A DNA stretch of 27,635 nucleotides from a virus. Positions 1,290 to 27,635 of this stretch are shown here, in pieces. Location: positions 1 to 27,635 of the IMG/VR virus record IMGVR_UViG_3300009285_000767. One strand, written 5' to 3'. The notes under the pieces are model-generated. The model worked only from the letters and a program-made list of their open reading frames with translations. It ran no database searches and was not told where the DNA came from. Each line of letters starts with the position of its first letter. The first letter of the stretch is position 1. A program made the translations under genes and the position numbers.

Positions 1290-1447
1290 TTAAGTGTGAG
1301 GAAGGTGGAACTATTATCTGCCGATATCTTACAAGTAAAGGATATTACCGAAGGTATAAAGTTAATTTAAAGATAGGTAGAACTTATACAGTGGCTATAA
1401 TAAAATGCAAGGCAAGACAGCCAAAATCCAGTAAAGGAGAGGTGTAA
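1286..1447 (+). CDS. 53-aa basic protein, unknown function
   Basis: A 53-codon gene (MIKCEEGGTIICRYLTS...) beginning with an ATGA overlap on the previous stop, preceded by GGAAGAAGGGAA. It is rich in Lys, Arg and Tyr and has three cysteines (residues 4, 12 and 41) without a clear metal-site spacing. The predicted pattern is alternating beta strands. The stop overlaps the next ATG as TAATG. The calling evidence is exact coupling at both ends plus a ribosome site; function is unknown. Confidence 0.6.
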   Translation: MIKCEEGGTIICRYLTSKGYYRRYKVNLKIGRTYTVAIIKCKARQPKSSKGEV

Positions 1448-1635
1448 TGATGAAGGTATATGTCGTATTGCAAGAAGATATAGTGCGTGGCAGGATTGAC
1501 GGTGTTAAGGCTATTTTTGCTTCTATTGACAAGAACGAAGCTGTAAAATTAGTAGAACACAATGATTATGCTTGGGTAGAAGAATTAGAATTAAAGATCA
1601 ACGCAGGAAACAAGAAAGAGGAGGAAGGGAAATGA
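1447..1635 (+). CDS. 62-aa protein, DUF7336-like in appearance
   Basis: A short protein beginning MMKVYVVLQED with a GGAGAGGTG ribosome site. The start could be either of two adjacent ATGs (1447 or 1450). The layout is a beta strand, a loop with an isoleucine/aspartate-rich strand, then an acidic helix with DKNEAVKLV. Small phage proteins of this type, with a strand followed by a ...EA helix, are common and uncharacterised. The C-terminal INAGNKK is shared with the next gene, as is the underlying DNA. It overlaps the next gene by ATGA. Confidence 0.65.
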   Translation: MMKVYVVLQEDIVRGRIDGVKAIFASIDKNEAVKLVEHNDYAWVEELELKINAGNKKEEEGK

Positions 1636-1820
1636 AGATAACGGCGATAAAAAGAAAATGCTTAGAAGAAAGTTATTACATTATGTTTAATTTTCATAAC
1701 AAGAGAATAGTTGACGGCAAAGATATGATAACCAGAAGTAATATTATTCACGGTGCTACTTATCTTACCAAAGACGAAGCATATGAAATCTGCAAGCGTA
1801 TCAACGCAGGAAACAAGAAA
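1597..1820 (+). repeat. exact 21-bp duplication at the ends of two adjacent small genes
   Basis: Positions 1597-1617 and 1800-1820 are identical and encode the INAGNKK ends of two neighbouring small proteins. Together with the similar protein architecture this points to tandem gene duplication, or to recombination that reuses the same 3' end. Confidence 0.7.
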
Positions 1821-1823
1821 TAA
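1632..1823 (+). CDS. 63-aa protein, apparent paralogue of the upstream gene
   Basis: The start is the ATG at 1632, which overlaps the upstream TGA (ATGA) behind GAGGAAGGGAA; a longer open frame further upstream is not needed. The protein MKITAIKRKCLEESYY... ends with a helix TKDEAYEICKRINAGNKK. The preceding protein has DKNEAVKLV and the same INAGNKK ending, so the two look like diverged tandem duplicates of a small domain. Function is unknown. A 26-bp gap separates it from the next gene, the only real gap in this plus-strand run. Confidence 0.65.
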   Translation: MKITAIKRKCLEESYYIMFNFHNKRIVDGKDMITRSNIIHGATYLTKDEAYEICKRINAGNKK

Positions 1824-1849
1824 AGCAAGTGTGAGCAATGGGGTGATAA

Positions 1850-2107
1850 ATGTCCGAGAGGGAGGGGGAAGGTATGATAACTGAAAGTGGAATAAACTAT
1901 AAAGACCATGTATCATCTGGTAGTTATGGATATTTCTGTGGATTCTGTGGATATAGGTTAATAGTTGAAGTCGGAGGTCATAATGACGAGCCGTCAACAA
2001 CAATAAAAGGAAAACCTGTAATGATGTATTGTTGTAATGAGAAGTGTAGTAGCGAACATCATGTAAGAAACATAGATAAGGTTGAGCCGAAAGGAGATAA
2101 CAAGTGA
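1850..2107 (+). CDS. small zinc-finger-like protein
   Basis: 85 residues from the ATG at 1850, preceded by GGGGTGATAA. An alternative ATG at 1874 (77 aa) has a stronger GGAGGGGG site and may be the true start. The protein carries CGFCG near the middle of the N-terminal half and CCNEKCSSEHH near the end. This gives a plausible four-ligand zinc site separated by about 30 residues, as in zinc ribbons. Function is unknown. Its end overlaps the next gene by GTGA. Confidence 0.6.
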   Translation: MSEREGEGMITESGINYKDHVSSGSYGYFCGFCGYRLIVEVGGHNDEPSTTIKGKPVMMYCCNEKCSSEHHVRNIDKVEPKGDNK

Positions 2108-2253
2108 AATGTTCTAAATGTGGGAAGTTAAAATCTAATCCTGCCAAAATATTAGGATTTCAGATCAAGGGTAGCGGACTATGTATCAAATGTTATCGTT
2201 CCACTCGGAGGCACTCATTATGGGGAGCTGGTAAACTAGGAGGTAGCAAATGA
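2104..2253 (+). CDS. 49-aa zinc-finger minigene with GTG start
   Basis: The start is a GTG overlapping the upstream TGA (GTGA), preceded by AAAGGAGATAACAA. The translation carries CSKC at residues 3-6 and CIKC at 27-30, followed by a basic tail (YRSTRRH...). The spacing fits a treble-clef or zinc-ribbon fold. A small basic zinc protein could bind nucleic acid, but that is inference. It is coupled to the next gene by ATGA. Confidence 0.6.
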   Translation: MKCSKCGKLKSNPAKILGFQIKGSGLCIKCYRSTRRHSLWGAGKLGGSK

Positions 2254-2387
2254 AATGTGATAATTGCAAACAGGAAGTGATATCGGTGGTACTATGCGAC
2301 TATTGTCAGAGTGCTATATGTGACGATTGCAAGGTGTTAAGGACAGATTTGGTATTATGTCCGCAGTGTGACGAGGTGACAGTATGA
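2250..2387 (+). CDS. 45-aa cross-brace-type zinc protein with eight cysteines
   Basis: A 45-residue protein with four CxxC pairs: C3/C6, C16/C19, C24/C27 and C37/C40. The spacing is x2-x9-x2-x4-x2-x9-x2. Eight ligands with four residues between the second and third pair is the arrangement used by cross-brace folds that bind two zinc ions, such as FYVE and related RING/B-box forms. The start is ATGA-coupled with AGGAGGTAGCAA upstream. No other domain is present. Binding partner is unknown; the fold assignment is by cysteine spacing only. Confidence 0.65.
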   Translation: MKCDNCKQEVISVVLCDYCQSAICDDCKVLRTDLVLCPQCDEVTV

Positions 2388-2518
2388 GCTTGATAAGGCA
2401 GATAGTGCAGAAAGACATATGCCAGAAGTGTGGATGTGTCATTGACAAGGATACATATGTCGTACATGGCAAGAGATTATGTAAGAAGTGTTTTGATAAA
2501 GTGTGGGGTGGCAAATGA
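2384..2518 (+). CDS. 44-aa zinc-ribbon minigene
   Basis: A tiny protein starting at the ATG that overlaps the previous stop (ATGA). It has CQKCGC at residues 13-18 and CKKC at 33-36, typical of a minimal zinc ribbon or half-LIM module, with a basic C-terminal end. The ribosome site (GACGAGGTGAC) lies inside the upstream coding sequence. It couples to the VRR-NUC gene by ATGA. Function is unknown. Confidence 0.6.
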   Translation: MSLIRQIVQKDICQKCGCVIDKDTYVVHGKRLCKKCFDKVWGGK

Positions 2519-2802
2519 AACCTCGCAAGATATTAGAGAAACATATAAAATCTCAGATTAAAGATTATCTTAATATCAAAGGATACTTCCACTTTCATTT
2601 AATGGCAGGTATGGGTAGTTATATCGGCGCACCCGACAGGATAGCAGTTAAGAATAGCAAGGTATGGTTTATCGAAGTGAAATCCCCTACCGGCACACAA
2701 AAAGATACACAATTATCGTTTCAGAACAGATTACAGTCAGCTGGCGGTACATATGTCCTGGCGAGGTCAGTTGAGGACTTAATACAAGCAGGTGTTATAT
2801 AA
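2515..2802 (+). CDS. VRR-NUC domain nuclease
   Basis: A 95-residue stand-alone VRR-NUC protein (PD-(D/E)XK superfamily). The visible active-site pattern is GAPDR (the Asp), then FIEVKSPTG (Glu and Lys of ExK) and a downstream Gln in TQLSFQNRL, followed by the usual GGTYVLARSVEDL ending. The start is the ATG at 2515, which overlaps the upstream TGA and has GGGGTGG behind it. Stand-alone VRR-NUC proteins are common in phage early regions and are expected to cut branched or structured DNA; the substrate here is inferred. The 3' end overlaps the convergent minus-strand gene by 8 bp. Confidence 0.88.
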   Translation: MKPRKILEKHIKSQIKDYLNIKGYFHFHLMAGMGSYIGAPDRIAVKNSKVWFIEVKSPTGTQKDTQLSFQNRLQSAGGTYVLARSVEDLIQAGVI

Positions 2803-3334
2803 GTAGTGCCAGGTGTAGACCGAAATTCTCTGCATTGAAAATAGGTGTTGATGTACGCATAATATGAGGATCGAGTAGTGTGTTATACGACACGCCAAGA
2901 AACAACCCACCGATAATATTCTTATACGCGCCAATCGACACTATATCTGGATATCCATTAACATGTATATACCCGCCAGATATCATCCACTGACTGATAT
3001 TACTGAACACCGGTTCAGATTTAGAATTACCAATTGTCGTATTATCAGTAGTAGTTGTCACTTCTGATTTCGTATTAGATACAATGCCAGTTTCAACAGT
3101 TGTCGTGGTTCCGTCAGGAGTAGTTGTAGTAGTGCGAGTATCAACTTTCTCATTTTTATCCTCCGACTTGACATAGACAATCTCGGTTGTAGTTTTATTA
3201 TATGATGATTTTCTTGGGTTGGAATATGCCGCTTCATTGGTTTTTCGTTCTTGATATGATGTGAATGCTTGACATAGGAATATGATTACAGCACCACCCA
3301 CTAATGCATATATATAATTAAGATACTTTGTCAT
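2795..3334 (-). CDS. membrane-anchored periplasmic protein, spanin-like position
   Basis: 179 residues. An N-terminal transmembrane anchor (YIYALVGGAVIIFLCQAF) is followed by a polar, threonine-rich linker with runs such as TTTTTPDGTTTT. The C-terminal part is compact, Gly/Tyr-rich and ends in hydrophobic residues (AENFGLHLALLI). It is the last gene of the lysis block, overlapping the holin-like gene by 17 bp with its own GAGAGGAAAA ribosome site. Position and topology suggest a spanin-type protein bridging to the outer membrane, but there is no lipobox or nested second gene, so the role is only a hypothesis. Confidence 0.55.
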   Translation of the reverse strand: MTKYLNYIYALVGGAVIIFLCQAFTSYQERKTNEAAYSNPRKSSYNKTTTEIVYVKSEDKNEKVDTRTTTTTPDGTTTTVETGIVSNTKSEVTTTTDNTTIGNSKSEPVFSNISQWMISGGYIHVNGYPDIVSIGAYKNIIGGLFLGVSYNTLLDPHIMRTSTPIFNAENFGLHLALLI

Positions 3335-4352: not shown

Positions 4353-6292
4353 TTATAAGTCCAATCGGTGATTATCCCATTCTTAATAGTTATTTCGTTC
4401 ATGTTCTTCCCTGCTCCCGTATAATATTTAATATAATTCCATTGGGTATTGATATTTGCGGTTCCGCCGCCATTTTCGTCACCAACCACTAAGTTGTTCG
4501 GATTACCGCCGGAAGTCAAAGTGCTATTCAATCTCAACACTCCATCAACATACACCTTTGCATTTGTTCCAAGAACAACTATGCGGTAAATATGGAATGT
4601 ATCAGTTGTGTCCATTGAATAGGTTGCTGTTCCAGCCGAAGCATATTCAAATTGTATATTACTTGTCTTTATTTCAAAATAGTCACCCTTTGCTCCCCCA
4701 ACATTCTGAAACCAAATATAAACAAATCCCGTACTTTCAACTGATACGAGTTGCATTTTTAATTCAATTGAATAACCGATAGTGCTATCGAATGCCGGGT
4801 CAATTAAATACCTACAGTATACAGCACCGGCACCCGTATTATTCATTGTAAGTATCCCATTCGATACCGAACACGCAGTTAATTCTCCAATGGTGCCACT
4901 ATAAGTCCAGCCATCAGCACTTGGCAATACCGACATATCGGTTATTTTTGTCCAAGTACCAACAGATACCAACTTAGTGATACCAGAACTTCCGTCAGAT
5001 GATTGGTACGCGGCAGTAACACTAGTTGCGGTGAGATTTATTATATTGGCACTTGTCGCGTTGATACTCAGTGCGTTGATACCAGCGTATGCGTATACTG
5101 TTGATTGCGCCAATAAATCACCGTCAACTTCTAAATGTCCGCTGACATTCAGCACACCGCCAGTGCCAGTTATCACTTCCGATTCGACATTTATGGTAGT
5201 AGCATTTATAGTATCTATACTGCCATTTGTTGCAGAAACAAGTATAGCATTAGTTGCAGATGAGTTTATTACTACAGCATTAACAGTTGTGCAATTAACG
5301 GTGATAGCACTTGCTGTTGATAAAAACACTTCTGCGAATGTCGGGCTGCCGGTTGTCTCTAAATCAGTTAATTGATTATGCACATGTGTCTGTGCAGCTG
5401 CCGTTTCCCATGTTGTCACTTGTGTACCTGATATGGAATTACATGTCAACGCAGCACATACGAATGTGTCGTCTGTCTGTAATACATTTGCTGTTAGACG
5501 ATATAAATTAGTGTCAACTGGATTAGTGCCGTTACCCCAATACAGATCACCGTCGCCATATATTTCTAATCTATATGCACCCTCACCTGTTATCCATGAC
5601 CGAAACGCATATGACGCAGAAGAACTGACTTTTGCCACTACGCTATTTGATACCATGTCACCTGTTATATATGTCGCAGTGTTAATAAACAATAGCCCAC
5701 CGACACCTTCCATTTGTATGTCACTTGGTGACGCAGGTATGATAAAATATGGCGATTTAACAAATGTCGTAGCGACATATCCAGCATCTGTCGTGACATC
5801 ACCTGCATTACCATATAAATTAACAGGTGTACCAGCTTGATTGAATATTATTTTATCATCTGCGAATATATCGTTTACTACTTCAAGATAGTTGCTTACC
5901 TTAACAACAGGCGTACCAGCACCCAATAATGTTTCATCTCTATTGATTGTCTGGTCGAGAAGTGTTAAGCTACCACCTGTCAGTGTGAGGTTGGCAAATC
6001 GTGGACTGCTGCTTGTCAGTAACGGCTGGTCTATGTAAGTCGCCACATCAGTATGGTCGGTTGTCGATAGGAATGTGTGACCTCTCGTATGCTGTAATGT
6101 AACAGCGCCACTCCATGCTGTCTGATTAGATATTGTCGGTATGCTGTATCCGCTTGCAGTTACTATATGCTGGTTGGTAAGCCCTAATCCGACAACTGAT
6201 AATGTGACAGCGTCATGACTGGTACTAGAATATGATATCTGTAAATCGTGAACTGCCTTCCATAACGCTCTGATATCTGTTAGGAAACTCAT
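4349..6292 (-). CDS. tail fibre with LamG/ConA-like C-terminal domain
   Basis: 647 residues. The N-terminal part (to about residue 320) contains the familiar fibre motifs DQPLLTSSSPRFANLTLTG and LTDLETTGSPTFAEVFL. A middle region of short Asn/Thr/Ala/Ile strand repeats (330-430) suggests a trimeric beta shaft. Residues about 447-635 look like a concanavalin/LamG jelly roll, with FHIYRIVVLGTNAKVYVDG as the most recognisable segment; this is a carbohydrate-binding fold. The protein is a likely host-receptor binder. The start overlaps the previous stop (ATGA). No chaperone or self-cleavage domain is seen. Confidence 0.8.
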   Translation of the reverse strand: MSFLTDIRALWKAVHDLQISYSSTSHDAVTLSVVGLGLTNQHIVTASGYSIPTISNQTAWSGAVTLQHTRGHTFLSTTDHTDVATYIDQPLLTSSSPRFANLTLTGGSLTLLDQTINRDETLLGAGTPVVKVSNYLEVVNDIFADDKIIFNQAGTPVNLYGNAGDVTTDAGYVATTFVKSPYFIIPASPSDIQMEGVGGLLFINTATYITGDMVSNSVVAKVSSSASYAFRSWITGEGAYRLEIYGDGDLYWGNGTNPVDTNLYRLTANVLQTDDTFVCAALTCNSISGTQVTTWETAAAQTHVHNQLTDLETTGSPTFAEVFLSTASAITVNCTTVNAVVINSSATNAILVSATNGSIDTINATTINVESEVITGTGGVLNVSGHLEVDGDLLAQSTVYAYAGINALSINATSANIINLTATSVTAAYQSSDGSSGITKLVSVGTWTKITDMSVLPSADGWTYSGTIGELTACSVSNGILTMNNTGAGAVYCRYLIDPAFDSTIGYSIELKMQLVSVESTGFVYIWFQNVGGAKGDYFEIKTSNIQFEYASAGTATYSMDTTDTFHIYRIVVLGTNAKVYVDGVLRLNSTLTSGGNPNNLVVGDENGGGTANINTQWNYIKYYTGAGKNMNEITIKNGIITDWTYK

Positions 6293-8739
6293 CTTTCGTA
6301 CTCGTATCCCTTAACTTTGGGTGATTTGCTTGTTGGCATACCGATAACTCCTGATATTTTAGATTGCGTTGATTTGTTTTTATCGAATACCGATGGTGCT
6401 GACATTGGAACACCAAGATCAACGCTTGCATCCAATATTCTCTTACCTGTACCAATGGCACCTTCATATTTATTAAACGGTGTTGGTCTTATCTGTCTTG
6501 CACTAGCTTGAATCCATGGAGCTAATTTGTTTATAGTCTTACCAATTGGGTCTGATAACAATTCAGGTACTTCAAATATAGATTTTAACGGTCTGAGGTA
6601 TACTTTTCTTCCGTCTGGTTCATTCCATGGTGCGCGAACAGAAAATGAATTGTTTCCATCGTTTTGAATCATGGCGTTTCCTTCACCATCCATATATTTA
6701 GTCATTGTAAAATTATATAAGTTAGCGGCTGCGTATATTCCTAAAGCACTATACAAATAATCTCTATATAATTTAGCAGTAGGTGCAGCCCTGCCACTTT
6801 TTGTAAATATACTTTTCGCTATATCTGCAACCATCCCAATATGAGCCTTCTGCCACTGCGGAGATATTAACGCTGTCTGCCATGCCTTACGAGCTTCTGG
6901 TGAATAGAAATTTTTTGCCATCCATTGATTGGTTTGCAACAATGCGCTCCTGTAATCCTCACCGGAGAATAATCTATTTGTGTAATTAACTACTTCCTTT
7001 GCAAGTGTATCTTTTTCGGCTATTGTCAATGCCCTGCCTGCTGATTTTTCACCACTTGCAATTAAGTTATCAAATATTGTCATAGACACATTCGTCTTTA
7101 TTCCTGGATGCACAACATTAAATGTTAAATCTTGAACAACTGACAATGTTTTACCAATTGTTTTTCCTACTATATTCTTGCTTTCTTTTAAATTCTGAAA
7201 TACATTACCACGATTTGGGTTTACATCGGAGAATCCTTTCAATTCTAATCCATTTCTATAAAGCAACCTTAGATTATCGCCACCCTCTTTCAATTGACCC
7301 AAACCTTTATATACATTATATCCAGGAACCCTGCTCAATCCTTTACCACCAGCTAACCCCTGCCAACCCAATGATTGAATATGAAACCCACTCATTAACT
7401 TTAATGACTTTGACATAAAATTAAGTTGTGCAGCTTTACCAAATGTAGGATTTTCAAAATAACCCCTTACATACGGATATAATTCTTTTGTTATACCAAT
7501 ACCAGATGGATCTATTTTATTTATTGCTGGATTGAAATACCTTTCATATCCATCTGTTAATCCCTCTTTTTGTAATTTGCTCCAACCCTCTATTAATTTT
7601 AATGGTACTTCCTTTGTTTCTTTTCCAACTTTTCTAATTATACCTTGTTCCATTTCTGTATTCATCAGTGTCTTTAACATTTCCCTACTGGAAGCTGCCC
7701 TCGATAGCGATATCATACTCATTTCAACCAATTCTGCTGGGTTAGATGTAGCTGGTATTTCTCCAAATGCTATACCCTCTTCCCTTGTCTTGTGAACCCT
7801 TGCCTGTAACTGAGGAGCCTCTTCACTCAATCTACCATACATGGGTGCATACGGCTTTCCTGTGTTAGGATTTTTCCACCAATGGAATATATAATTCTTC
7901 TCTACTTCAGCTGGTGTCAATAGACCAGTTTCAACCGAGAATTGAGTCAAGTCGCTACTGACTACTTTCAATGCGTCGTGTATCTCTTTTTCAACTGGCG
8001 TAAGTTTACTTAGATATTTATTTGGTTGTTCTAACGCATTGGTTATAAGTTCCTGTCTATCTGCCGGTATCCTTAAATCATCAAATGATTTTCTTATTTC
8101 ACTTGCTATAAATTCAACATCCCTAGATGACTTATGATGTTGTGCCATTGATTCTATTCCAGACTTGACGCCTGTGTCTTTTGGTGTTTCCAATGTTGAC
8201 TTAATGCTATTTAAAGATTCTTTAACTTTAATAGATAAATCTTTAATTGGTTGAAGTAATGTTTTTTGTTCTGGGGTTACAACCTGTTCTGCCGCTGGTA
8301 TTATATCTTTTGCGATAGAAGGTTCCATGGATGCTATATTTTTTTCTTTAGAAATAATACCTCTGCCCATCTTGGGTATTGTTTTAGTGCCAAGTTTAAC
8401 AACAGATCCAACGGGAGAAAGTCCGGCTACAATTCCAGCCGATTCCATCTCTAGTTCCTTAGACTTATTTATCATCTCCATATCTGGTCTCAAACTATTT
8501 TTTTCGTATGCAAGTTGTCTCAATTGTTCGGCTTTCATCCTATCTTCTATAGCCGTTAATGGTGAAATTGCTATTTGATATAAGGATGTTTCCTTTAACT
8601 TATCCATGAATGATTTCTGGGGCTCGGAATCAGACTCGATAGGTTCAGTAAATTCAAACGGTTGTTCGTCGGTAAATTCAAATACATCATTTGAATTATC
8701 GGTAAACTCGAATAAATCTTCTTTCTGCTGAATAGGCAT
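6289..8739 (-). CDS. large internal virion / ejection-type protein
   Basis: 816 residues, the largest protein here, with a TAATG overlap to the gene before it. The N-terminus carries three copies of a short acidic-aromatic motif (FEFTD, FEFTD, FEFTE). Most of the rest is helical, with a Gly/Pro-rich hydrophobic stretch near residues 100-125 (AGIVAGLSPVGSVVKLG). The central and C-terminal parts (FHIQSLGWQGLAGG..., YTNRLFSGEDYRSALL...) look like the large virion proteins that podophages eject with their DNA. No transglycosylase motif was recognised. Position after two other ejection-type genes supports the call. Confidence 0.6.
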   Translation of the reverse strand: MPIQQKEDLFEFTDNSNDVFEFTDEQPFEFTEPIESDSEPQKSFMDKLKETSLYQIAISPLTAIEDRMKAEQLRQLAYEKNSLRPDMEMINKSKELEMESAGIVAGLSPVGSVVKLGTKTIPKMGRGIISKEKNIASMEPSIAKDIIPAAEQVVTPEQKTLLQPIKDLSIKVKESLNSIKSTLETPKDTGVKSGIESMAQHHKSSRDVEFIASEIRKSFDDLRIPADRQELITNALEQPNKYLSKLTPVEKEIHDALKVVSSDLTQFSVETGLLTPAEVEKNYIFHWWKNPNTGKPYAPMYGRLSEEAPQLQARVHKTREEGIAFGEIPATSNPAELVEMSMISLSRAASSREMLKTLMNTEMEQGIIRKVGKETKEVPLKLIEGWSKLQKEGLTDGYERYFNPAINKIDPSGIGITKELYPYVRGYFENPTFGKAAQLNFMSKSLKLMSGFHIQSLGWQGLAGGKGLSRVPGYNVYKGLGQLKEGGDNLRLLYRNGLELKGFSDVNPNRGNVFQNLKESKNIVGKTIGKTLSVVQDLTFNVVHPGIKTNVSMTIFDNLIASGEKSAGRALTIAEKDTLAKEVVNYTNRLFSGEDYRSALLQTNQWMAKNFYSPEARKAWQTALISPQWQKAHIGMVADIAKSIFTKSGRAAPTAKLYRDYLYSALGIYAAANLYNFTMTKYMDGEGNAMIQNDGNNSFSVRAPWNEPDGRKVYLRPLKSIFEVPELLSDPIGKTINKLAPWIQASARQIRPTPFNKYEGAIGTGKRILDASVDLGVPMSAPSVFDKNKSTQSKISGVIGMPTSKSPKVKGYEYER

Positions 8740-15810: not shown

Positions 15811-16506
15811 TTAGAAATTATAAGTTACCCGAATCTTATCGAGTTTACTGCTGCCGTATATACGCTTCATGCGATTAAACGACCCTTCTTTCTTATCGCC
15901 ACCTGCTATACCGCCATATAGCTCTATGTAATATCTCTGTGCCTCGCTGTCACCCTCATATGCCAATACTTTATAGACGGCAAGATTGACAACAACCGCC
16001 TCTTCAAATATCTCGGGTATGTCGCATGTCGTTGTGCTGGTTGCCGTACTAAATACTGTCGGTATCTTCCAATAACGATACTGAATAGTTTTACTCGCAT
16101 TTGCCGACCCTGGAATAGTGTCAATTACGAATTGATTATTGTATTTTGTTACTTGTGTCGGATATCCGGTGTTGGAAATAGACGGATTGTCAATATCGAA
16201 CTCCTGTGGATCGACATATGCAATGTTAGTGCTGTTAGCAGATAATCTAAAACTGAATATGTCCTCTTCCATCATATCGGTTGCTACTGCATATGCAGTC
16301 GTCGATGTAAGAAGTGTTATCGTTCCGCTTGACTCTGCAAACTGCCACTTGCCACTGTTGTTGGTATATATCTCGTAAAGTGCCTCATTGAGTGCGTTCC
16401 ATGACATTAAGTTTCTGCCAGACAGACTTGTGAGAACTGTCACTTCTGGTTCACCTATTTTTTCAAGCACACGATTCAACAATTGTAAACATGTTTTCTT
16501 AGCCAT
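15811..16506 (-). CDS. head-tail adaptor, gp4/tail tubular A-like
   Basis: 231 residues. It begins TCLQLLNRVLEKIGEPEVT, the usual opening of podophage adaptor proteins. It continues with a W-containing segment (SWNALNEALYEIYTNNSGKW) and a strand region around YPTQVTKYNNQFVIDTIPG, ending with a helix (VVNLAVYKVLAYEGDSEAQR). This matches P22 gp4 / tail tubular A-like connectors that bind the portal. The start overlaps the methyltransferase by 8 bp, with GGAGGATATAA upstream. The gp10-like gene follows directly, the normal order. Confidence 0.75.
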   Translation of the reverse strand: MAKKTCLQLLNRVLEKIGEPEVTVLTSLSGRNLMSWNALNEALYEIYTNNSGKWQFAESSGTITLLTSTTAYAVATDMMEEDIFSFRLSANSTNIAYVDPQEFDIDNPSISNTGYPTQVTKYNNQFVIDTIPGSANASKTIQYRYWKIPTVFSTATSTTTCDIPEIFEEAVVVNLAVYKVLAYEGDSEAQRYYIELYGGIAGGDKKEGSFNRMKRIYGSSKLDKIRVTYNF

Positions 16507-17245
16507 TTATATCCTCCACTGCTACAGCATTATAATCTGTTCCTTTCTGAACAACTATATGCAAATTATTCCATGCCGTGAATCTCGAACTGTAATTTTC
16601 ACGCATGACGATAATATCAAATCCTATTGTCTTTAATACTTCCGTCAATTTACTCTTTGAAAAGTATATGTTGTTTTCTGATAAGTTCCAATTCCCCCAG
16701 TTCTTTAATCCCACCGAATACATTAGTTCCGTGAAGGGTGTGCTGATGAACGCCAAGCCGCCAAGATTCAATAGCTCATGTGTTTTAATCAGCATGCCGC
16801 CAGGAGAGTCGAAACTCTGCAATATATTACCCAACCAAATAAAATCATATTTCTTATTGCCGAAATTATATTTCTCATAATCACCGACGATATAATCATT
16901 TGGCATTAAATCTATGCCGTCTGTTATCCAACCTCTGTTACGAAGATAGTCTATTTTGTATGGGTGCGTGAATCCTACATCAAGGAACTTCCTGCCGTAT
17001 GTCGATTCCTCAACTATCGGGAGAAAAGTTTTCAGTATATACTCCTCTCGTGATACTATTCCCTTGATATTTTGGTATCTGGTGCGATACTCTTCATTGA
17101 ATACTGATTTGTCTATATTCCCGCTCTTGTTCTGTACACAACCACACCTGCAAAAACAAAAGTCACCTTTCTTGCCGGTAGTATCAGGAAGGTTAATGCT
17201 AAATCCCATCTGATTCTCACATATCGGGCAATGTCTAATTTCCAC
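16499..17245 (-). CDS. class I SAM-dependent methyltransferase with N-terminal zinc motif
   Basis: 248 residues from a GTG start that overlaps the GT9 gene end. The N-terminus has CPIC (residues 6-9) and CFCRCGC (about 30-36), a putative zinc-binding head also seen in sugar C-/O-methyltransferases. The Rossmann core shows FLDVGFTHPYKIDYLRNRG (motif I region), DGIDLMPN (acidic residue after strand 2), YDFIWLGNILQSF (motif post-II) and LLNLGGLAFISTP. Motif I lacks the usual GxGxG glycines (VGFTHP), so activity is not assured. Its gene neighbours suggest a sugar substrate. Confidence 0.75.
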   Translation of the reverse strand: MEIRHCPICENQMGFSINLPDTTGKKGDFCFCRCGCVQNKSGNIDKSVFNEEYRTRYQNIKGIVSREEYILKTFLPIVEESTYGRKFLDVGFTHPYKIDYLRNRGWITDGIDLMPNDYIVGDYEKYNFGNKKYDFIWLGNILQSFDSPGGMLIKTHELLNLGGLAFISTPFTELMYSVGLKNWGNWNLSENNIYFSKSKLTEVLKTIGFDIIVMRENYSSRFTAWNNLHIVVQKGTDYNAVAVEDING

Positions 17246-18230
17246 TTGACACCTTATCTATTACACTGAATATATGGTCTCTGACGCGTTCCATAGGCAA
17301 TCCTTGCGACATACATAAACAAGTATGTGCGATACTGTCGAATGGGCATTGCACATCGCCGTTATATATTAATCTAAAGCAGGGTGCGCAATCACATTTA
17401 GCTTCTATCGAGTAATCATTCTCAAATGTCTTTGTTATGTTCTCGATTGTCGTATGTCCGAGTAATCCTATTTTGGGGGTTGGGTAACAGCCAGCTGCGT
17501 GTAGCAAACCAGTATCAGGCGACACCACTAAGTCACAATGCTTGGTGGCGAGCATGGCTGTTCCCATATCCCAAATTCCCGACTTTCTAATGATTCTATC
17601 GTTATCATATCCGAGTTCTAAAACTTGACAATTCTGATCACCAACTGTAATAATTTTCGCATTAGGGTATTTATCAAGGACAGCAGCTTGCACATAAGTA
17701 GTCCAAGGATAAGTCTTATTCCTACCGCTACCAGACAAACCCCAAACAACAACAAATCCATTAAGGTTCTTAAGACCGTGAATATAATCAAACATTTCAT
17801 CATCAGCTTTTTTTTCAAAGAATAATTCTCCATGTTTTCCAGTCACCCCCGAATATCCTGCATGAGTAAATGTGTAATCATAATAATTTATATCGCACTC
17901 TTTTTTTCTTTCTTCTTTACTTAAATTATATCTCGGATCCGTGGGGCTAAGTGCCAATCTGCACTCGATTGACTCCGATAAGTTAATTGTCTTATCCCAC
18001 TCATACGCCTTAGCTGTTGCCGACCAGAATTCATCAAGTTTATCAGGTGCTATCGAATTAGATACATATGGTATCAACTTATCTATAAACGGGTTATTGG
18101 CAAGTATCTCCACACCCCTTTCACTTGTCATTAGATGAACTTCGTTACCTTGCTCTTTGAGATAACGCAATAGTGGAGTAATAATCACGCAGTCGCCAAA
18201 AGCACCGAGCCTGATTATTCCTATCCTCAT
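17235..18230 (-). CDS. GT9-family glycosyltransferase (heptosyltransferase-like)
   Basis: 331 residues. It begins MRIGIIRLGAFGDCVIITPL, the N-terminal signature of ADP-heptose:LPS heptosyltransferases (GT9). The second signature is VVSPDTGLLHAAGC (PDTG at 238-241). A cysteine cluster near the C-terminus (C279, C281, C284, C295, C304, C306) is common in GT9 variants. Fold: GT-B. The donor may be ADP-heptose or another nucleotide sugar; the acceptor is unknown. The start overlaps the preceding stop by ATGA. It lies inside the structural operon with a methyltransferase and a GT-C-like membrane protein. Confidence 0.88.
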   Translation of the reverse strand: MRIGIIRLGAFGDCVIITPLLRYLKEQGNEVHLMTSERGVEILANNPFIDKLIPYVSNSIAPDKLDEFWSATAKAYEWDKTINLSESIECRLALSPTDPRYNLSKEERKKECDINYYDYTFTHAGYSGVTGKHGELFFEKKADDEMFDYIHGLKNLNGFVVVWGLSGSGRNKTYPWTTYVQAAVLDKYPNAKIITVGDQNCQVLELGYDNDRIIRKSGIWDMGTAMLATKHCDLVVSPDTGLLHAAGCYPTPKIGLLGHTTIENITKTFENDYSIEAKCDCAPCFRLIYNGDVQCPFDSIAHTCLCMSQGLPMERVRDHIFSVIDKVSSGN

Positions 18231-20610: not shown

Positions 20611-21549
20611 TTATACGGATGAGGTCATGAACAATTCATGCTCTTCGCTGTCCGTGCTGTAATCCCATATCTTCTTAAAGCCGAGCAGTGCGTACCACGC
20701 AACACCTTTGCTACGACCATAATCGGTAGGAATCTTCATGCGGAGTTCCTCAGGAACTGCAACTGCTTCCATAAGTGCGTCTCCACCCAAGAACAACGCT
20801 TCTCCTGAATTAGCAGAGAAACCCTTGATGTTGGAAAGAACATTGTTCTCTTCAACAAACCGGCAACCGTAGTATTTGCCCTTTTCCTGATTGAACATAT
20901 ATTCAGGAGTCGTATACGCCATCAATGCTTGCAGATAGTCATAAAGACCTCTCTGTGCATTTACGGTAGCGATACTGATGTAATCAGAACCGTTCTCGTA
21001 TTTCGGAATCTTTTTGATTTTCATGTAATCAATGATATCCCGAACATTCTTGTCTGACATGTTGCCATGTGCAGTGTGATTAATCGTTCCATTGGTCGAG
21101 AACGAAGTCGTTGCTGTGTTGATAACAATGGCAAGTAAATCTGCCGCAGTCGCAACAGTCGCAACCGCACGGTCAAGAACATCGTGCATGTCGTCACGAA
21201 TCACAACGGAAGTCTCATCATTCACATTGAACTCTGAGAGTGTCTGAAGTTTTTCGCTGTACGGAATTGAATTACCGTACTCATTAACCGTAATACTGTC
21301 CTGTGAAACTGTGAAATTTGTTTCCGGCATTGTGGTTGTCTCGGTAAGTGTTCCACCGCGTGTAGAAATACGGCTCATCTTATCGAAATAAACCTTGTCT
21401 GCCTTACCATGTCCAAACGCTTCTTTGATCTTGCAGAACTGTCTGAAAATGTATAACGGTGAAGCTGCATGCCTCATCGCCTTGCTGAGTGTGGGATTAG
21501 CCAGATATCCACCCAAGGAACTGGTAGTCCAATTTTGTCCTACTGCCAT
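20611..21549 (-). CDS. major capsid protein, N4-gp56/P22-coat-like
   Basis: 312 residues. Family-like landmarks are a Phe/Tyr-rich N-terminal arm (PLYIFRQFCKIKEAFGHGKA), VNEYGNSIPYSEKLQTLSEF in the E-loop/P-domain region, a long helix (VIRDDMHDVLDRAVATVATA), NAQRGLYDYLQALMAY, and YGCRFVEENNVL. These match the N4-gp56 family of HK97-fold coat proteins. The upstream neighbour is a scaffold-type protein, the expected order. A good ribosome site (GGAGATGAATTAAC) precedes the ATG. No cleavable N-terminal delta domain is obvious. Confidence 0.82.
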   Translation of the reverse strand: MAVGQNWTTSSLGGYLANPTLSKAMRHAASPLYIFRQFCKIKEAFGHGKADKVYFDKMSRISTRGGTLTETTTMPETNFTVSQDSITVNEYGNSIPYSEKLQTLSEFNVNDETSVVIRDDMHDVLDRAVATVATAADLLAIVINTATTSFSTNGTINHTAHGNMSDKNVRDIIDYMKIKKIPKYENGSDYISIATVNAQRGLYDYLQALMAYTTPEYMFNQEKGKYYGCRFVEENNVLSNIKGFSANSGEALFLGGDALMEAVAVPEELRMKIPTDYGRSKGVAWYALLGFKKIWDYSTDSEEHELFMTSSV

Positions 21550-22706: not shown

Positions 22707-24617
22707 TTATCCTCCCCTTGTCTCACTACGCATAGTCTGTGGCATACCGCTACTATCCATCACGCCTTGTTCGGCTGTTGGTCTTTGACTTCCTGCTTGA
22801 TTAGCGATGTTCTGTTGTGCTAATCCCGTTGCAGTAGCGTCGTCGATAGGATTAACTAAATCCTGCCATTCAGGTATTTCACTCATCTGCATAAATCTCT
22901 TGAACATCTTGGGCAGATTAATAACTTGTGCATATAGCGGATTAGTAACTGCTTTAGTAAGCAAGCCATCCAACTTCTGTAATAGTGACATCTTCTCCAT
23001 GAAATGTGTCACACCTGTTATTCTGAATTTCATATCCAAATCTATCTTGCTGCGTAATTCTTCAAGACTGAGTTTTGACTCTTCCTCAATTTTAAATCCG
23101 ACAGGCTCGCTTGTCTTAGGGTCAAGTATCGCTATCTTATTCTGTTTCTTACCAAGTAGCTTATCTATTTTCTCTTGGTCGAATATCTTAGGATTAACTA
23201 TAATCTTAAACAAATATCGTATCAACGGCAATATGAAATCTATCTCTATGGCATACGCTTGGTCTAAGAACCTATTGTCAACCATCTGAAGTTTCGATTG
23301 ATATGCGCCAAGTGTCTCTTCGCCACCACCCGATGTGCCAGGTACCGATTGCGTACCCTGTGCCTGACGAGTAGCCCCCGTAGCATCTTGATGCATCCCA
23401 TCTAACATAGCCACACCCTGTAGTATGTCACGAAGTGCCGACATACCACTCCTTGTGATTTTGGCACCATTGACATCCTTCATCTTCCATATCGCAAGTG
23501 GCTTATACTGTATACTGGTCTCATCTGCTATCTTACTCTCGTCAATTATTGCAATATCCATGCTCGATATTTTCAAACTATCAAATCCTAAACATACCAT
23601 CGAATTCATTAGTTCTTGTAAATCGGTAACATTTTCAAAGTATCCCCTGCCATAAGTATCATACTTCCGTTTCTTGGTTCTTGCAATGACGACCGGTATA
23701 AATCCAAAGTCGTTCTTATCATTACGAAGTACCGCCCGTTTATTTGCAATAGTGACCACCCGCTGTTCGTATTCATAATATTCCACATCCGCATTTGACG
23801 CTTCGTCTCTGAATGTCTTTTTTACTTTAACGACACCCCAATATTCGTGAATTGCCACCTTTGTAAATTCTTTTGGTACAGTGATGTTACCGGTACCATC
23901 TATTGTCCTTATGGTCTCAAGGTTGATACCACTTTGATTAATCTCTTCTGTCGGATTTGATTTGACTTCTCCGCTCGCAAGCAATCTCTGTACTGCATCT
24001 TTGTCGTATAACGAATTCGGCTTGCTAGCTTCATTTACCAAGTCGCCTAAATCTTTTGTATATTCATCTATCCAATATTTCGATAGGTAGAAGTCATGTT
24101 TCGCCTGCGGATCTATCAAACAGTTATACGGCGACCGCCATGTGAAATTAACACCATTGCCATCCTGATTGACAAGTATCTTTAGGAATGATGTTCCTAT
24201 GTCAATCGCCTCTTGCAACGCGAAATCTTTCTGTACATTAAACCCGCCTTTAGACTTAATAGCGTCGATAAGTTCCATTAGATAATCGTCTTGCTCTCTC
24301 TCTGCCTCTCCCGAACCTGCTATATCAAAATTCCTATCAGTTCCGAATATCATCTTGTTAAGATAACTCTTGACAACTTCACTCGTCTTACTCTGTAATG
24401 GTAGAAATACTTTTGTTTGCCATTTTTCTTTTAACGACCAATCCGATGGATGTACACATCTTAACTGCTCTTCAATCAGCTGCCATCCTTGTGTAAACTG
24501 ATTACGATAATTCTCAGATGCCTGTATGCAATTTGTTATGTATGCAACAAGCTCATTATCTTCTGAAAATTCCTCAGGTGTTAAATTTGCCTCTTTTGCT
24601 AAATCTCTGAATTCCAT
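22707..24617 (-). CDS. portal protein
   Basis: 636 residues from the ATG at 24617, chosen because GGAGGAAAATA lies directly upstream; an in-frame extension to 24638 has no such site. Visible portal features are a helical N-terminus with WQTKVFLPLQSKTSEVVKSY, a conserved WRSPYNCLIDPQAKHD stretch, YEYEQRVVTIANKRAVLRND, a long helical stem region (about residues 340-400) and a Gln/Gly-rich C-terminus. The length and context (after the terminase, before the scaffold) fit a podophage portal of the P22/N4-like group. It forms the dodecameric DNA entry ring. Confidence 0.85.
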   Translation of the reverse strand: MEFRDLAKEANLTPEEFSEDNELVAYITNCIQASENYRNQFTQGWQLIEEQLRCVHPSDWSLKEKWQTKVFLPLQSKTSEVVKSYLNKMIFGTDRNFDIAGSGEAEREQDDYLMELIDAIKSKGGFNVQKDFALQEAIDIGTSFLKILVNQDGNGVNFTWRSPYNCLIDPQAKHDFYLSKYWIDEYTKDLGDLVNEASKPNSLYDKDAVQRLLASGEVKSNPTEEINQSGINLETIRTIDGTGNITVPKEFTKVAIHEYWGVVKVKKTFRDEASNADVEYYEYEQRVVTIANKRAVLRNDKNDFGFIPVVIARTKKRKYDTYGRGYFENVTDLQELMNSMVCLGFDSLKISSMDIAIIDESKIADETSIQYKPLAIWKMKDVNGAKITRSGMSALRDILQGVAMLDGMHQDATGATRQAQGTQSVPGTSGGGEETLGAYQSKLQMVDNRFLDQAYAIEIDFILPLIRYLFKIIVNPKIFDQEKIDKLLGKKQNKIAILDPKTSEPVGFKIEEESKLSLEELRSKIDLDMKFRITGVTHFMEKMSLLQKLDGLLTKAVTNPLYAQVINLPKMFKRFMQMSEIPEWQDLVNPIDDATATGLAQQNIANQAGSQRPTAEQGVMDSSGMPQTMRSETRGG

Positions 24618-24757
24618 TATTTTCCTCCGTAATTCCACTTATGTTTTTTAATCCAATGACATTTTTTACACAAAGTAATTCCGTTATTTATATCCCATAG
24701 CGGAGTATATATTTTCATTACTTCATATATATCAAGTAATGGCAAATTGTCAATCAT
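24617..24757 (-). pseudogene. HNH endonuclease remnant (C-terminal fragment)
   Basis: An open frame of 46 residues from the ATG at 24757, ending PLWDINNGITLCKKCHWIKK and so on. The pattern (NNGITLCxxCH...H) is the second half of a Cys-containing HNH nuclease. The first His pair and the first CxxC are missing. The frame runs back only into the end of the terminase gene and is closed by a stop there. The stop overlaps the portal start (TAATG), and its tail supplies the portal ribosome site. HNH genes next to terminases are common in phages; this one is most likely a relic. Confidence 0.5.
24726..24753 (-). promoter_or_regulatory. possible internal sigma70 promoter before portal
   Basis: TTGACA (24753-24748), a 16-base spacer and TATATA (24731-24726) on the minus strand, within the HNH remnant and upstream of the portal. 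The -35 is perfect; the -10 is weak. In AT-rich DNA, chance matches are common, so this is tentative. Confidence 0.3.
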
Positions 24758-24785: not shown

Positions 24786-26225
24786 TCACCAACCTCCAGC
24801 GCCCGAAGAAATCATATTACTTGTATCTTTAATTCTATGACACCGACGAGAACCGCCTGTCGATGCGTAAACAGCCAACGATAAACTGTCAGCTCTATCA
24901 GGTGATGTCGAGCCAAGTCCTTGTGCGTGGAGCCGTTCCTTAGGCGTGACTTTTATCCTACCCTTCTTATCCATTTCATATTTCAAACTTACCAACTGTC
25001 CAGATAACTTCATGTCATCTTTCGGTATCTGAATTATACCGGTTCTGAATCTCTCTCTAAGGTTCCAAAATATCTCCGACCTCAAGTCGAAAAATTTCTC
25101 GTCAAGATCAGCACGGCTTCTGAGAATCACCGGTATGACATTATATCCCTGCTCACTTAATATATCTGATACGCCACCGCCAAGTCCTGTATCGTCTATC
25201 GCAATCGGAATAGTGTATGCATTAAAATCAAAATACTCGTTACTCTTATCCGCCATGTCGCGCAACACATTGATTATTAGTCCTGCCAATTCTGTAGTGT
25301 TCCTCTTTTTAAACACTTCCATTCTGTCAACCTTAAATCCATTGAATACCGTTATCACACTTTCATTATCGCCATATCTCGCAACATCAACGCCAATCGA
25401 CACTTGTTTATACATCTCTATTTCTTTGTTCCTGGCATTTTCTATCCATGACAGAGGTATCAATGTGTCGGTTGCTTCTATCGGGAACTGACCCAATATC
25501 TTACTATACCACATCGGGTTCTCTTCACCCAACTCGTTACGCATCTCTTCTACCCATTCATATCCAGAGATACCAGGAAACACATCTTTCTTAGCTTTAT
25601 AGTTCGGATTATCCAAACAAGATATCGTTACCTGGTGCCACTTACTGCCGTCAGTGAAACAATTATAGAAGTCTCCAGTCGGTGACAACGGATTACCCAC
25701 CACCAGGACTCTGTTGTTCGTCGCTGTAGCGAGACCTCTTGTCGCGTTCCATATTTTAGTATCCACACCACCAGCCTCGTCGAATATCACCAGCAAATTC
25801 TCGCTATGAAAACCTTGGAACCGATTCTCGTCATCTGTCGATACGCCAAGTGCGTACCATTCTTTGTCAAATCTTAATTCTGTCTTTGTCAAGTTCCCGC
25901 CGATGGGAATCTTACTTTTCTCATACAGCGTAGCTAACTCCGACCATATAATTTTCTCCACCTGAAGAAATGTGGGAGCTGTTGTAATAACCTTGCTCGG
26001 GTAATACGAATACAGCCACCACAGAATAATCTTTGCTATTACATGTGACTTCCCGTTCCCATTCCCACTTTTCACCGCTACCCTTCTGTGGTTGGCTATC
26101 GCTTCCCATACCTCTTTCTGTTTCTCCCATATGTCACCACCCAATACCTGCGAGTTAAACGCCAGCGGATTAGTCTGATAATACTTCTGTAATTCTATCG
26201 CAGCTTGATAGTCGACTTCAGCCAT
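24786..26225 (-). CDS. terL: terminase large subunit
   Basis: 479 residues. The ATPase part has Walker A SGNGNGKS (53-60), Walker B LLVIFDEAG (144-152) and a coupling motif around VLVVGNPLSPTGDF. The nuclease part has Asp280 in SIGVDVARYGD, a second acidic pair in IAIDDTGLGGG (344-345) and a third site in SPDRADSLSLA near residue 450. This is the RNase H-like headful or cos-cutting nuclease of phage terminases. It pumps DNA through the portal and cuts it. It sits after the small subunit gene and a small unknown protein; only an HNH remnant separates it from the portal. Confidence 0.93.
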   Translation of the reverse strand: MAEVDYQAAIELQKYYQTNPLAFNSQVLGGDIWEKQKEVWEAIANHRRVAVKSGNGNGKSHVIAKIILWWLYSYYPSKVITTAPTFLQVEKIIWSELATLYEKSKIPIGGNLTKTELRFDKEWYALGVSTDDENRFQGFHSENLLVIFDEAGGVDTKIWNATRGLATATNNRVLVVGNPLSPTGDFYNCFTDGSKWHQVTISCLDNPNYKAKKDVFPGISGYEWVEEMRNELGEENPMWYSKILGQFPIEATDTLIPLSWIENARNKEIEMYKQVSIGVDVARYGDNESVITVFNGFKVDRMEVFKKRNTTELAGLIINVLRDMADKSNEYFDFNAYTIPIAIDDTGLGGGVSDILSEQGYNVIPVILRSRADLDEKFFDLRSEIFWNLRERFRTGIIQIPKDDMKLSGQLVSLKYEMDKKGRIKVTPKERLHAQGLGSTSPDRADSLSLAVYASTGGSRRCHRIKDTSNMISSGAGGW

Positions 26226-26228
26226 TGT

Positions 26229-26465
26229 TTATATTGTCCCCTCAATTAATTTTACTAATTCTATAAATTCTTTAACTGATAATTTTTCAATTATCTTTTT
26301 CTCAAGCAATTTACTTACCACATTGAACGCAGATTTAAATTTATCAGGATATACATATTGTGTATATGGATATGTATATGTATATGGAACCCATGTATTT
26401 GTTGAAACATCTAAATATCCTAAATTATTAGTTGTCATACTATATTCCAATTTATTATCATTCAT
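26229..26465 (-). CDS. 78-aa Tyr/Thr-repeat protein between terminase genes
   Basis: The start overlaps the terS stop (ATGA) with GAGGGGG just upstream, and the end lies 3 bp before terL. Residues 27-40 are a Tyr/Thr/Pro repeat (YTYTYPYTQYVYP) encoded by near-tandem TATATG units, a DNA stretch prone to slippage. The C-terminal half is a helix (KSAFNVVSKLLEKKIIEKLS and so on). No family is recognised. Perfect coupling to both terminase genes argues for a packaging-related or accessory role, though nothing in the sequence shows it. Confidence 0.6.
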   Translation of the reverse strand: MNDNKLEYSMTTNNLGYLDVSTNTWVPYTYTYPYTQYVYPDKFKSAFNVVSKLLEKKIIEKLSVKEFIELVKLIEGTI

Positions 26466-26986
26466 ACTTTTACCCCCTCTATATCTATGGTTGGTTTCCT
26501 ATTCTTAAGTTCCTTATGTGCATTAGTGATTATCTGCTGCCATGTGAAATTCTGATTAACTGTCACATTGCTCTCAGTCAATAGTCCTCTCATCCTCGCC
26601 AATAACTCGATCGCCTTTATCCCAGGTGACGCTTCATTACCGGCTCGTAATGTCTTAACTCTATCCCACAACTCAAGTTTCAAATTGTCATCTGTTATCT
26701 GACCCATCCGTATCTTATTATACTTATTACCAACTGACAGCTTCCTAACCATCGCACGACCCTTGACATGCGCTATCTCACTCGACACATTGTCAAACGC
26801 TATCTCGCTAGCTTCATTCTCTCCCATGTTATTTTTTATTAGCTTTATGAATTCTCTCTCCCGATCCATGTCAGTTCTAATCTGGGGGGGTGTCATAACG
26901 GCCGGGGTGTCATTCTGAGATTCGCCAAATGCGAGTTTTGTATCTGCGAGTTCTTGTGTGCCGAGTTTTAAATTGCTATTATCCAT
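26462..26986 (-). CDS. terminase small subunit, probable
   Basis: 174 residues from the ATG at 26986. A longer open frame (to 27067) would read through a consensus promoter and is rejected. The N-terminal 50 residues are polar; the rest is helical, with SEIAFDNVSSEIAHVKGRAM, a central basic helix and KAIELLARMRGL then ESNVTVNQNF. This pattern recalls small terminase subunits with a C-terminal portion following a helix-turn-helix. Position before terL supports it. The predicted transcription start is only about 3 bases before the ATG and no ribosome site is seen, so translation may be leaderless. A run of seven C residues lies in the N-terminal coding part. Confidence 0.65.
   Translation of the reverse strand: MDNSNLKLGTQELADTKLAFGESQNDTPAVMTPPQIRTDMDREREFIKLIKNNMGENEASEIAFDNVSSEIAHVKGRAMVRKLSVGNKYNKIRMGQITDDNLKLELWDRVKTLRAGNEASPGIKAIELLARMRGLLTESNVTVNQNFTWQQIITNAHKELKNRKPTIDIEGVKV
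26887..26913. repeat. direct repeat GGGGTGTCAT in terS, candidate pac-like signal
   Basis: Two copies of GGGGTGTCAT (26887-26896 and 26904-26913, 17-bp period) lie inside terS, and a third at 27058-27067 just upstream. The core TGTCAT is the same hexamer repeated in the adjacent origin-like region. Packaging-start sites often lie within or beside terS in headful phages. No direct evidence of cutting. Confidence 0.35.
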
Positions 26987-26995
26987 CTTGCAATC

Positions 26996-27024
26996 ATTAT
27001 ACCACAAGATATAGTATGTGTCAA
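26996..27024 (-). promoter_or_regulatory. perfect-consensus sigma70 promoter of the late operon
   Basis: On the minus strand, TTGACA (27024-27019), an exact 17-base spacer and TATAAT (27001-26996). Transcription would start near 26989, a few bases before the terS ATG at 26986. It points into an almost gapless minus-strand operon reaching to 2795. Perfect consensus on both boxes is uncommon in phage late genes and implies strong recognition by host RNA polymerase without an activator, unless it is repressed by something binding the repeats next to it. Confidence 0.85.
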
Positions 27025-27141
27025 TAGAATAATACACTATTTTATATGCCATCCGTAGGGGTGTCATGCGACAGATGATGAATTGCGATTATCGATAGGC
27101 GAGTGTCAGGTGATATCTATACACTTTCACCATGTTACATA

Positions 27142-27153
27142 TGATACGTATCA
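27142..27153. promoter_or_regulatory. 12-bp perfect palindrome, possible operator
   Basis: TGATACGTATCA is its own reverse complement. It lies about 120 bp upstream of the late promoter and 25 bp before the first TGAGTTATGTCAT repeat. It could bind a dimeric regulator. No regulator gene is in the window. Confidence 0.35.
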
Positions 27154-27170
27154 ATTCCCTCTTTGCTATT

Positions 27171-27303
27171 TGAGTTATGTCATCTCATACATGAGTTATG
27201 TCATATGATTATGAAATATCACACTGTCATATGTCATCAACCATACTACACTATGCTATATGTCATCATGTCATCATCAATCTGTCATATGTTATCATGT
27301 CAT
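27171..27303 (+). repeat. TGTCAT iteron-like repeat array
   Basis: Eight direct copies of TGTCAT begin at 27178, 27199, 27225, 27232, 27261, 27269, 27283 and 27298. A 13-base unit TGAGTTATGTCAT occurs exactly twice, 21 bp apart (27171 and 27192), i.e. about two helical turns. An inverted copy (ATGACA at 27325) forms 9-bp arms ATGTCATAT/ATATGACAT at 27297-27305 and 27323-27331. No gene is present. Such spacing and repetition is expected for a Rep/initiator-binding array. Confidence 0.75.
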
Positions 27304-27369
27304 ATGATTATTAACAATTATGATATGACATACATTAATAGGTATATTGAACTATGCCTAATAGCCGCC

Positions 27370-27378
27370 TGTGGATAA
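27370..27378 (-). promoter_or_regulatory. DnaA box 1 (TTATCCACA)
   Basis: The minus strand reads TTATCCACA, an exact match to the classic high-affinity DnaA box. It is the first of a tandem pair with 11-bp period, placed between the repeat array and the AT-rich tract. Confidence 0.8.
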
Positions 27379-27380
27379 CC

Positions 27381-27389
27381 TGTGGATAA
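27381..27389 (-). promoter_or_regulatory. DnaA box 2 (TTATCCACA)
   Basis: A second exact TTATCCACA on the minus strand, same orientation as box 1 and 11 bp away, so both lie on the same face of the helix. Tandem boxes at the edge of the iterons occur in plasmid origins such as that of P1. Confidence 0.8.
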
Positions 27390-27459
27390 CTATTGATAAA
27401 ATGAAAAAACAGAATTGTCATTTATAATACCAATTTTTTTGACCTCGTGTCGTATTTTC

Positions 27460-27579
27460 TTTTTTTAAAAGTTTTTTTTAATAAGAGCGTATTACAGTAT
27501 TTATCATATTTCGTCATATATACTATCTGTTATACTTATACTACTATACTATCTTATTAAAAAAAAGTTTTTAAAAAAA
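27460..27579. repeat. long AT-rich inverted repeat
   Basis: The arm at 27460-27485 and the arm at 27553-27579 are near-perfect reverse complements. Both read CTTATTAAAAAAAA, one base (C or G), four or five T, then an A run. They are separated by 67 bp. The pair frames the AT-rich tract and may form a cruciform, act as an unwinding element or bracket a divergent control region. Confidence 0.6.
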
Positions 27580-27635
27580 AAATTAAGAAATATATATCAG
27601 AATATGAATATGCATATAATTGTTGTTATGAAATC

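Follow-up and report, generated by a model that had tools for sequence, protein, structure and literature searches.

Little is known of how replication begins in most environmental phages and whether it involves the host initiator. One viral contig combines direct repeats, tandem DnaA boxes and an AT-rich tract at its far right end, upstream of the late operon. An earlier note read this combination as an iteron origin in a phage genome, with its elements in the order used by P1 and RK2, and raised either a phage-plasmid lifestyle or a replication mode dependent on the host initiator. Is this locus a plasmid-like origin, or does it point to another use of DnaA boxes next to the packaging genes of a phage?

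Organization of the window

The window, i.e. the whole stretch of DNA analysed (27,635 bp), is an entire IMG/VR virus record classified as linear. Its minus strand carries a late operon running from 27067 to 2795 that comprises a candidate small terminase, the large terminase, an SU10-type portal and a PTXU04/N4-like capsid protein (Table 1), the last with approximately 38–40% identity to the capsids of podovirus PTXU04 and Vibrio phage D279. A short plus-strand block at the left end, whose last gene encodes the resolvase-like nuclease, meets this operon head-on at 2802. The structural operon also contains a methyltransferase (PF13489) and, as judged by eye, a glycosyltransferase-like ORF common to several capsid relatives (both within 16499–18230). 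A search for tRNA genes in the window found none, and a dif/Xer site is absent (best candidate 15/22).

Replication genes of the phage are absent from the contig, and we infer that an early/replication operon lies beyond its right end. As the AT-rich tract runs off this end, the feature as a whole is truncated. Family searches with the small-terminase candidate, the first gene of the late operon, gave no match and its structure model was uninformative (pLDDT 32). A full-consensus sigma-70 promoter directed into the packaging/late operon sits between two possible starts of this ORF, which makes a start at 26986 likelier than one at 27067.

Table 1. Features of the window, with positions counted from its first nucleotide
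Feature	Position	Strand	Basis or remark
VRR-NUC/Holliday-junction-resolvase-like nuclease	2503–2802	+	phrog_93, E 5e-16; phrog_5702, E 2e-10
Major capsid protein, PTXU04/N4-like	20611–21549	−	phrog_1357
SU10-type portal/head-tail adaptor	22707–24638	−	phrog_332, E 5e-30; PF23899
Large terminase subunit	24786–26225	−	phrog_2, E 3e-44
Putative small terminase ORF	26462–27067	−	assigned from position alone
Three further TGTCAT copies, GGGGTGTCAT context	26891, 26908, 27062 (26891–27067)	+	both sides of the late promoter
Sigma-70 promoter, consensus TTGACA-17-TATAAT with TG extension	26996–27024	−	12/12 match
Eight direct TGTCAT hexamers	27178–27303 (126 bp)	+	motif scan and shuffle test
Inverted TGTCAT copy	27325–27330	−	motif scan
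Two perfect DnaA boxes, 2 bp apart	27370–27378, 27381–27389	−	TGTGGATAA on +, TTATCCACA on −
Degenerate third DnaA box, TATTGATAA	27391–27399		7/9 match, directly after the perfect pair
AT-rich tract, candidate unwinding region	27390–27635		80% A+T; cut by the contig end

Anatomy of the right-end region and its relatives

The basic components described in the earlier note were confirmed. No perfect DnaA box other than the tandem pair occurs in the 27.6-kb window, and none of 2000 shuffles of the intergenic region had two. The adjoining tract of 246 bp is very AT-rich compared with the contig as a whole (61% A+T), reaching 85% in its richest 100 bp. It contains four TATACT copies (27519–27550), long A/T inverted repeats (27450–27500 and 27538–27588) and, as part of the contig end, low-complexity A/T runs. 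At least eight direct copies of TGTCAT had been claimed; exactly eight lie on the plus strand within 126 bp, at spacings of 21, 26, 7, 29, 8, 14 and 15 bp, and another plus-strand copy is found at 27416. Dinucleotide shuffling of the intergenic region (2000 replicates) gave at most four copies of any four-letter hexamer per 126 bp.

Scans of viral contigs with single proteins found no close relative of the phage. Among 80 contigs with a relative of its large terminase, only the 7.6-kb contig L026 has tandem boxes upstream, and the box element is thus neither universal nor required. L026 carries an SU10 portal, a large terminase, a gene in the small-terminase position, DnaA boxes and an AT-rich tract in the same order as the window. 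Its boxes form a tandem of three, its AT-rich tract likewise has four TATACT copies, and the 15-mer TATACTTATACTACT is common to both tracts, a length of match reached in 2 of 100 shuffles. The right-hand neighbour in L026 is a lytic transglycosylase-like gene. Between its boxes and the small-terminase-position gene lies a small minus-strand ORF (6045–6317) with very weak similarity to Arc-like repressors.

A wider view is offered by G066 (L083 plus L299), a podovirus-like record of 36,327 bp that is classified as linear. Given the exact end overlap of 127 bp, which lies inside a cluster of nine DnaA boxes, it is probably complete. The cluster separates a plus-strand, T7-like replication operon from a minus-strand late operon. 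The former encodes a gp2.5-like SSB, a T7-like primase/helicase, PolA, a Cas4-like exonuclease, endonuclease I, RNR and ThyX; those of its genes that were scanned include neither Rep nor DnaA nor a phage RNA polymerase. The two operons converge once, near 14.1 kb, and the GC skew changes sign there and at the boxes. The plan of the window matches that of G066, with convergence at 2802 and the extremes of cumulative G-C, a minimum at 27553 and a maximum at 2882, at corresponding points. Cumulative GC skew had been proposed as a check for an origin. The position of its minimum agrees with one, but as evidence the skew is confounded with gene strand, which accounts for it as well as replication would.

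Chance or an assembly artefact would be conceivable for a feature at a contig end with low-complexity A/T runs. The shuffle tests, the recurrence of the placement in independent contigs (see below) and the identical element order of L026 argue against it, and we regard this explanation as practically negligible.

Comparison with iteron plasmid origins

Iteron plasmid origins such as P1 oriR, RK2 oriV and those of F and R6K combine three elements within a single noncoding region, namely direct repeats, DnaA boxes and an AT-rich tract, and so does the window. The element order attributed to it did not hold up: the window has repeats, DnaA boxes and AT-rich tract in succession, which differs from both model plasmids. 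In P1, boxes are followed by the AT-rich tract and then by the iterons. In RK2 the order is DnaA boxes, iterons, AT-rich tract (PMC4980987). Iterons are repeats of 17–22 bp, alike throughout the unit, that are bound by a Rep protein (PMC4980987) and are generally in helical phase (PMC5043065). In contrast, the unit of the TGTCAT array comprises just 6–7 bp, with flanks 34% identical versus 30% by chance, and its irregular spacing is not helically phased (phase concentration 0.26, p 0.6).

That no Rep gene is visible was correct for the 27.6-kb contig, which ends inside the region: the Rep_3 profile found none there, and none in 26 records of capsid relatives. Of 50 box-bearing IMG/VR contigs of at least 10 kb among the matches listed, one was above the Rep_3 cut-off, eight carried a family A polymerase of their own and none reached the cut-off for the DnaA family, so contamination by chromosomal oriC regions is unlikely. 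The capsid lineage gave 379 matches in viral contigs. A second scan, of another size and with other patterns, covered cellular genomes of 84,980 species and gave a single match, which lies in a metagenome-assembled genome (contig of 4.7 kb). Nothing indicates that this lineage has a prophage or plasmid form resident in cells. Whole-region DNA comparison with phages and plasmids returned weak AT-rich matches only and no plasmid homologue. A phage-plasmid would be marked by maintenance genes such as Rep and Par or by an occurrence in host genomes or plasmids; the Rep_3 profile gave no match on the incomplete contig, and the one cellular match is the sole such occurrence encountered.

A P1/RK2-like iteron origin was rejected on these grounds, i.e. 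a repeat that shares the hexamer alone, its lack of phasing, the failure to find Rep_3 on the contig or in the capsid relatives and the rarity of the capsid lineage in cellular genomes (1 in 84,980). One might still assume a true iteron replicon, with TGTCAT bound by a phage Rep or O-like initiator encoded past the contig end and the genome maintained as a plasmid; the joint presence of the three elements and the missing right flank would fit. We consider this very improbable in view of the properties of the array, the Rep_3 results, the scarcity of cellular and plasmid matches, and the neighbour in L026, where the lytic transglycosylase-like gene occupies the place in question and not a rep gene.

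Recurrence of DnaA boxes upstream of terminase genes

The earlier note assumed that podovirus-type phages usually lack DnaA boxes. This is contradicted by box matches in T7-like and N4-like isolates and by the nine-box cluster of G066, which has its own primase-helicase and polymerase. The tandem-box 22-mer CCTGTGGATAACCTGTGGATAA occurs in at least 120 IMG/VR contigs; its reversed version, of the same composition and tandem structure, occurs in none. A 32-nt tandem-box query matched, often partially, 413 records of an annotated phage collection, including T7-like Autographiviridae, N4-like Litunavirus, T5-like Demerecviridae and phages of Streptomyces and Lactococcus. Eight of these records were examined; the noncoding stretches that hold their perfect boxes have one to six each. 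The T7-like phages phiEap-1 (L294, 71–174) and FBKp16 (L292, 4093–4252) have five or six co-oriented perfect boxes, spaced by 21, 22, 30 and 22 bp in phiEap-1, where none lies beyond the first 175 bp of the record.

In the viral contigs the boxes lie predominantly just upstream of terminase genes. Profile HMMs of two terminase families located the large terminase in 73 of 120 fetched loci, and among these listed matches the boxes were found 0–3.5 kb upstream in 69, at a median distance of 938 bp (range 239–3151, measured to stop-to-stop ORF edges). Uniform placement, a null that ignores gene density, predicts 33.2 of the 73 loci and gave at most 48 in 20,000 simulations. The loci are not independent, since the largest lineage has 37 members, and the same placement was seen in 12 of 15 lineages defined by protein clustering and with both terminase families (among the matches listed). 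PHROG assignments added several further groups with boxes upstream of phrog_38-type terminases. At 1141 bp upstream of the large terminase, the boxes of the window fit this pattern. Dependence on the host initiator, the other possibility raised in the earlier note, is a sensible interpretation, given the huge excess of tandem boxes in viral contigs and their recurrence at the same place.

Other properties vary. Neither the orientation of the boxes relative to the terminase nor the presence of an AT-rich tract is conserved across lineages, and capsid relatives of the window, many of them fragments without replication genes, showed no tandem boxes. In a GC-rich group of 13 members the boxes separate the small terminase gene from the large one and are not placed at an early/late divergence. 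Members of this group (L031, L033, L070, L073, L076, L097, L098, L102, L105, L115 and L117; e.g. L076:5418–5445) have three or four tandem boxes together with a dif-like Xer site roughly 100 bp from them; this site, AGTGCGTATAACACCCATTATGTTAAAT, matches 19–20 of 22 arm bases and 10–11 of 11 in the XerD arm. No phage integrase was detected in the nine records of the group tested; Xer-mediated integration or dimer resolution is a possible role of this site.

Tandem boxes also occur in microvirus-like contigs (L025:2458, L091:1597, L068 and L079), directly upstream of a Rep gene (phrog_942) in the first two. Of the 120 box contigs among the matches listed (L003–L122), 18 have their boxes at most 300 bp from a contig end (8.3 expected) and 14 at most 100 bp (2.8 expected), an excess that may reflect genome ends or assembly breaks.

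Possible functions of the region

Our best reading is that the region is a divergent noncoding control region of a tailed phage, set between the late operon and the presumed early/replication operon and carrying a putative binding site for host DnaA. Beyond this, we tentatively predict, with a confidence that comes close to even, that it is a phage replication origin opened by host DnaA. In such a scheme, DnaA of the host would bind the tandem boxes, the adjoining AT-rich tract would be opened, and a helicase of phage or host would be loaded there. The recurring placement in many unrelated phages suggests that host DnaA is recruited to these sites, probably for starting phage replication. The variable box orientation, the inconstant AT-rich tract and the boxes inside the terminase gene pair of the GC-rich group speak against one uniform origin model.

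These same observations bear on a role of DnaA in transcription. DnaA might repress or time the packaging/late promoter, or the boxes might titrate it, with replication starting elsewhere. The conserved partner of the boxes is indeed the terminase operon and not a replication gene, their orientation is flexible, they fall within the terminase gene pair in the GC-rich group, and in the window the consensus late promoter is only about 350 bp away. However, the boxes usually lie some 250–1500 bp from the terminase start and not over a promoter, the AT-rich tract of the window and L026 would be left unaccounted for, and the microvirus-like contigs have their boxes directly upstream of a Rep gene. 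Taken together, a regulatory function in place of an origin appears rather unlikely.

The TGTCAT array calls for separate consideration. It is the strongest short-repeat array in the compared set, and no equal counterpart was found, L026 included. Lineage-specific hexamer arrays accompany boxes in 7 of 72 and 10 of 62 flanks at p≤0.02 (among the matches listed). A short-repeat array common to the boxes of relatives was rejected, given that such arrays occur in a minority only and none is as strong as TGTCAT.

The small terminase gene, or the stretch directly before its start, commonly contains the packaging site. The array could accordingly be a pac or cos site recognized by the small terminase, with the DnaA boxes as a separate element. 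TGTCAT copies extend from inside the small-terminase-position ORF to 27421, in keeping with this location, and both the modest enrichment of hexamer arrays beside boxes and the excess of boxes within 300 bp of contig ends would be compatible with it. Against this stand the assignment of the small terminase from position alone, the missing counterpart of similar strength in L026 and the fact that contig ends also arise from assembly breaks at repeats; we judge a packaging site to be unlikely.

Relation to known origins and implications

Several known systems resemble the locus in part. The basal unwinding system (BUS) of bacterial oriC is defined by co-oriented DnaA boxes with a gap of no more than 3 bp (PMC8287927), an arrangement shared by the perfect pair of the window with its 2-bp gap and a GC-rich spacer on one side. 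At least three DnaA-trios within 16 bp of the boxes belong to the BUS as well. On the array side, trio-like triplets follow the GC spacer as judged by eye (3'-GAT AAT CCG TAT CAA-5'), but this run of two trios, a break and two trios is short and interrupted, and the locus resides in a phage beside a terminase gene. Lambda likewise has an origin with repeats and an adjoining AT-rich stretch; its initiator is the phage's own O protein acting on 19-bp inverted-repeat iterons, not DnaA (PMC5043065). The lytic phages phiEap-1, FBKp16, PA26 and Sugarland (T7-, N4- and T5-like) resemble the window in their perfect boxes in noncoding stretches, but these were not seen by the terminase, and several are near genome ends or terminal repeats.

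For Pseudomonas phage PseuGes_254, Ori-Finder predicted an origin in a noncoding, AT-rich segment that contains DnaA boxes and borders a primase/PolA/SSB/ThyX/RNR module (PMC11512268). This is a prediction for a single genome, and the available part of that report mentions neither a link to terminase genes nor recurrence. DnaA boxes in phage origins are a known feature, and for single phages there are Ori-Finder-based predictions of origins (PMC11512268). In the open literature, to which our search was confined, we found no systematic report of box placement upstream of terminase genes.

A more far-reaching interpretation would be that clusters of consensus DnaA boxes arose independently, just upstream of the terminase operon, in many unrelated tailed phages, some of them lytic and equipped with a primase-helicase and polymerase of their own, and that host DnaA both opens the origin there and couples replication to packaging. 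We regard this as possible, if on the doubtful side. T7 opens its origin by transcription; in relatives such as G066, whose early operon showed no phage RNA polymerase, DnaA could take over this task.

To infer a plasmid lifestyle from the DnaA boxes of a phage would be wrong. Tandem boxes upstream of terminase genes, a signature that recurs across lineages, offer a concrete candidate, open to testing, for a step of phage replication or packaging that depends on host DnaA, and they are a candidate origin marker in metagenomic phage genomes.
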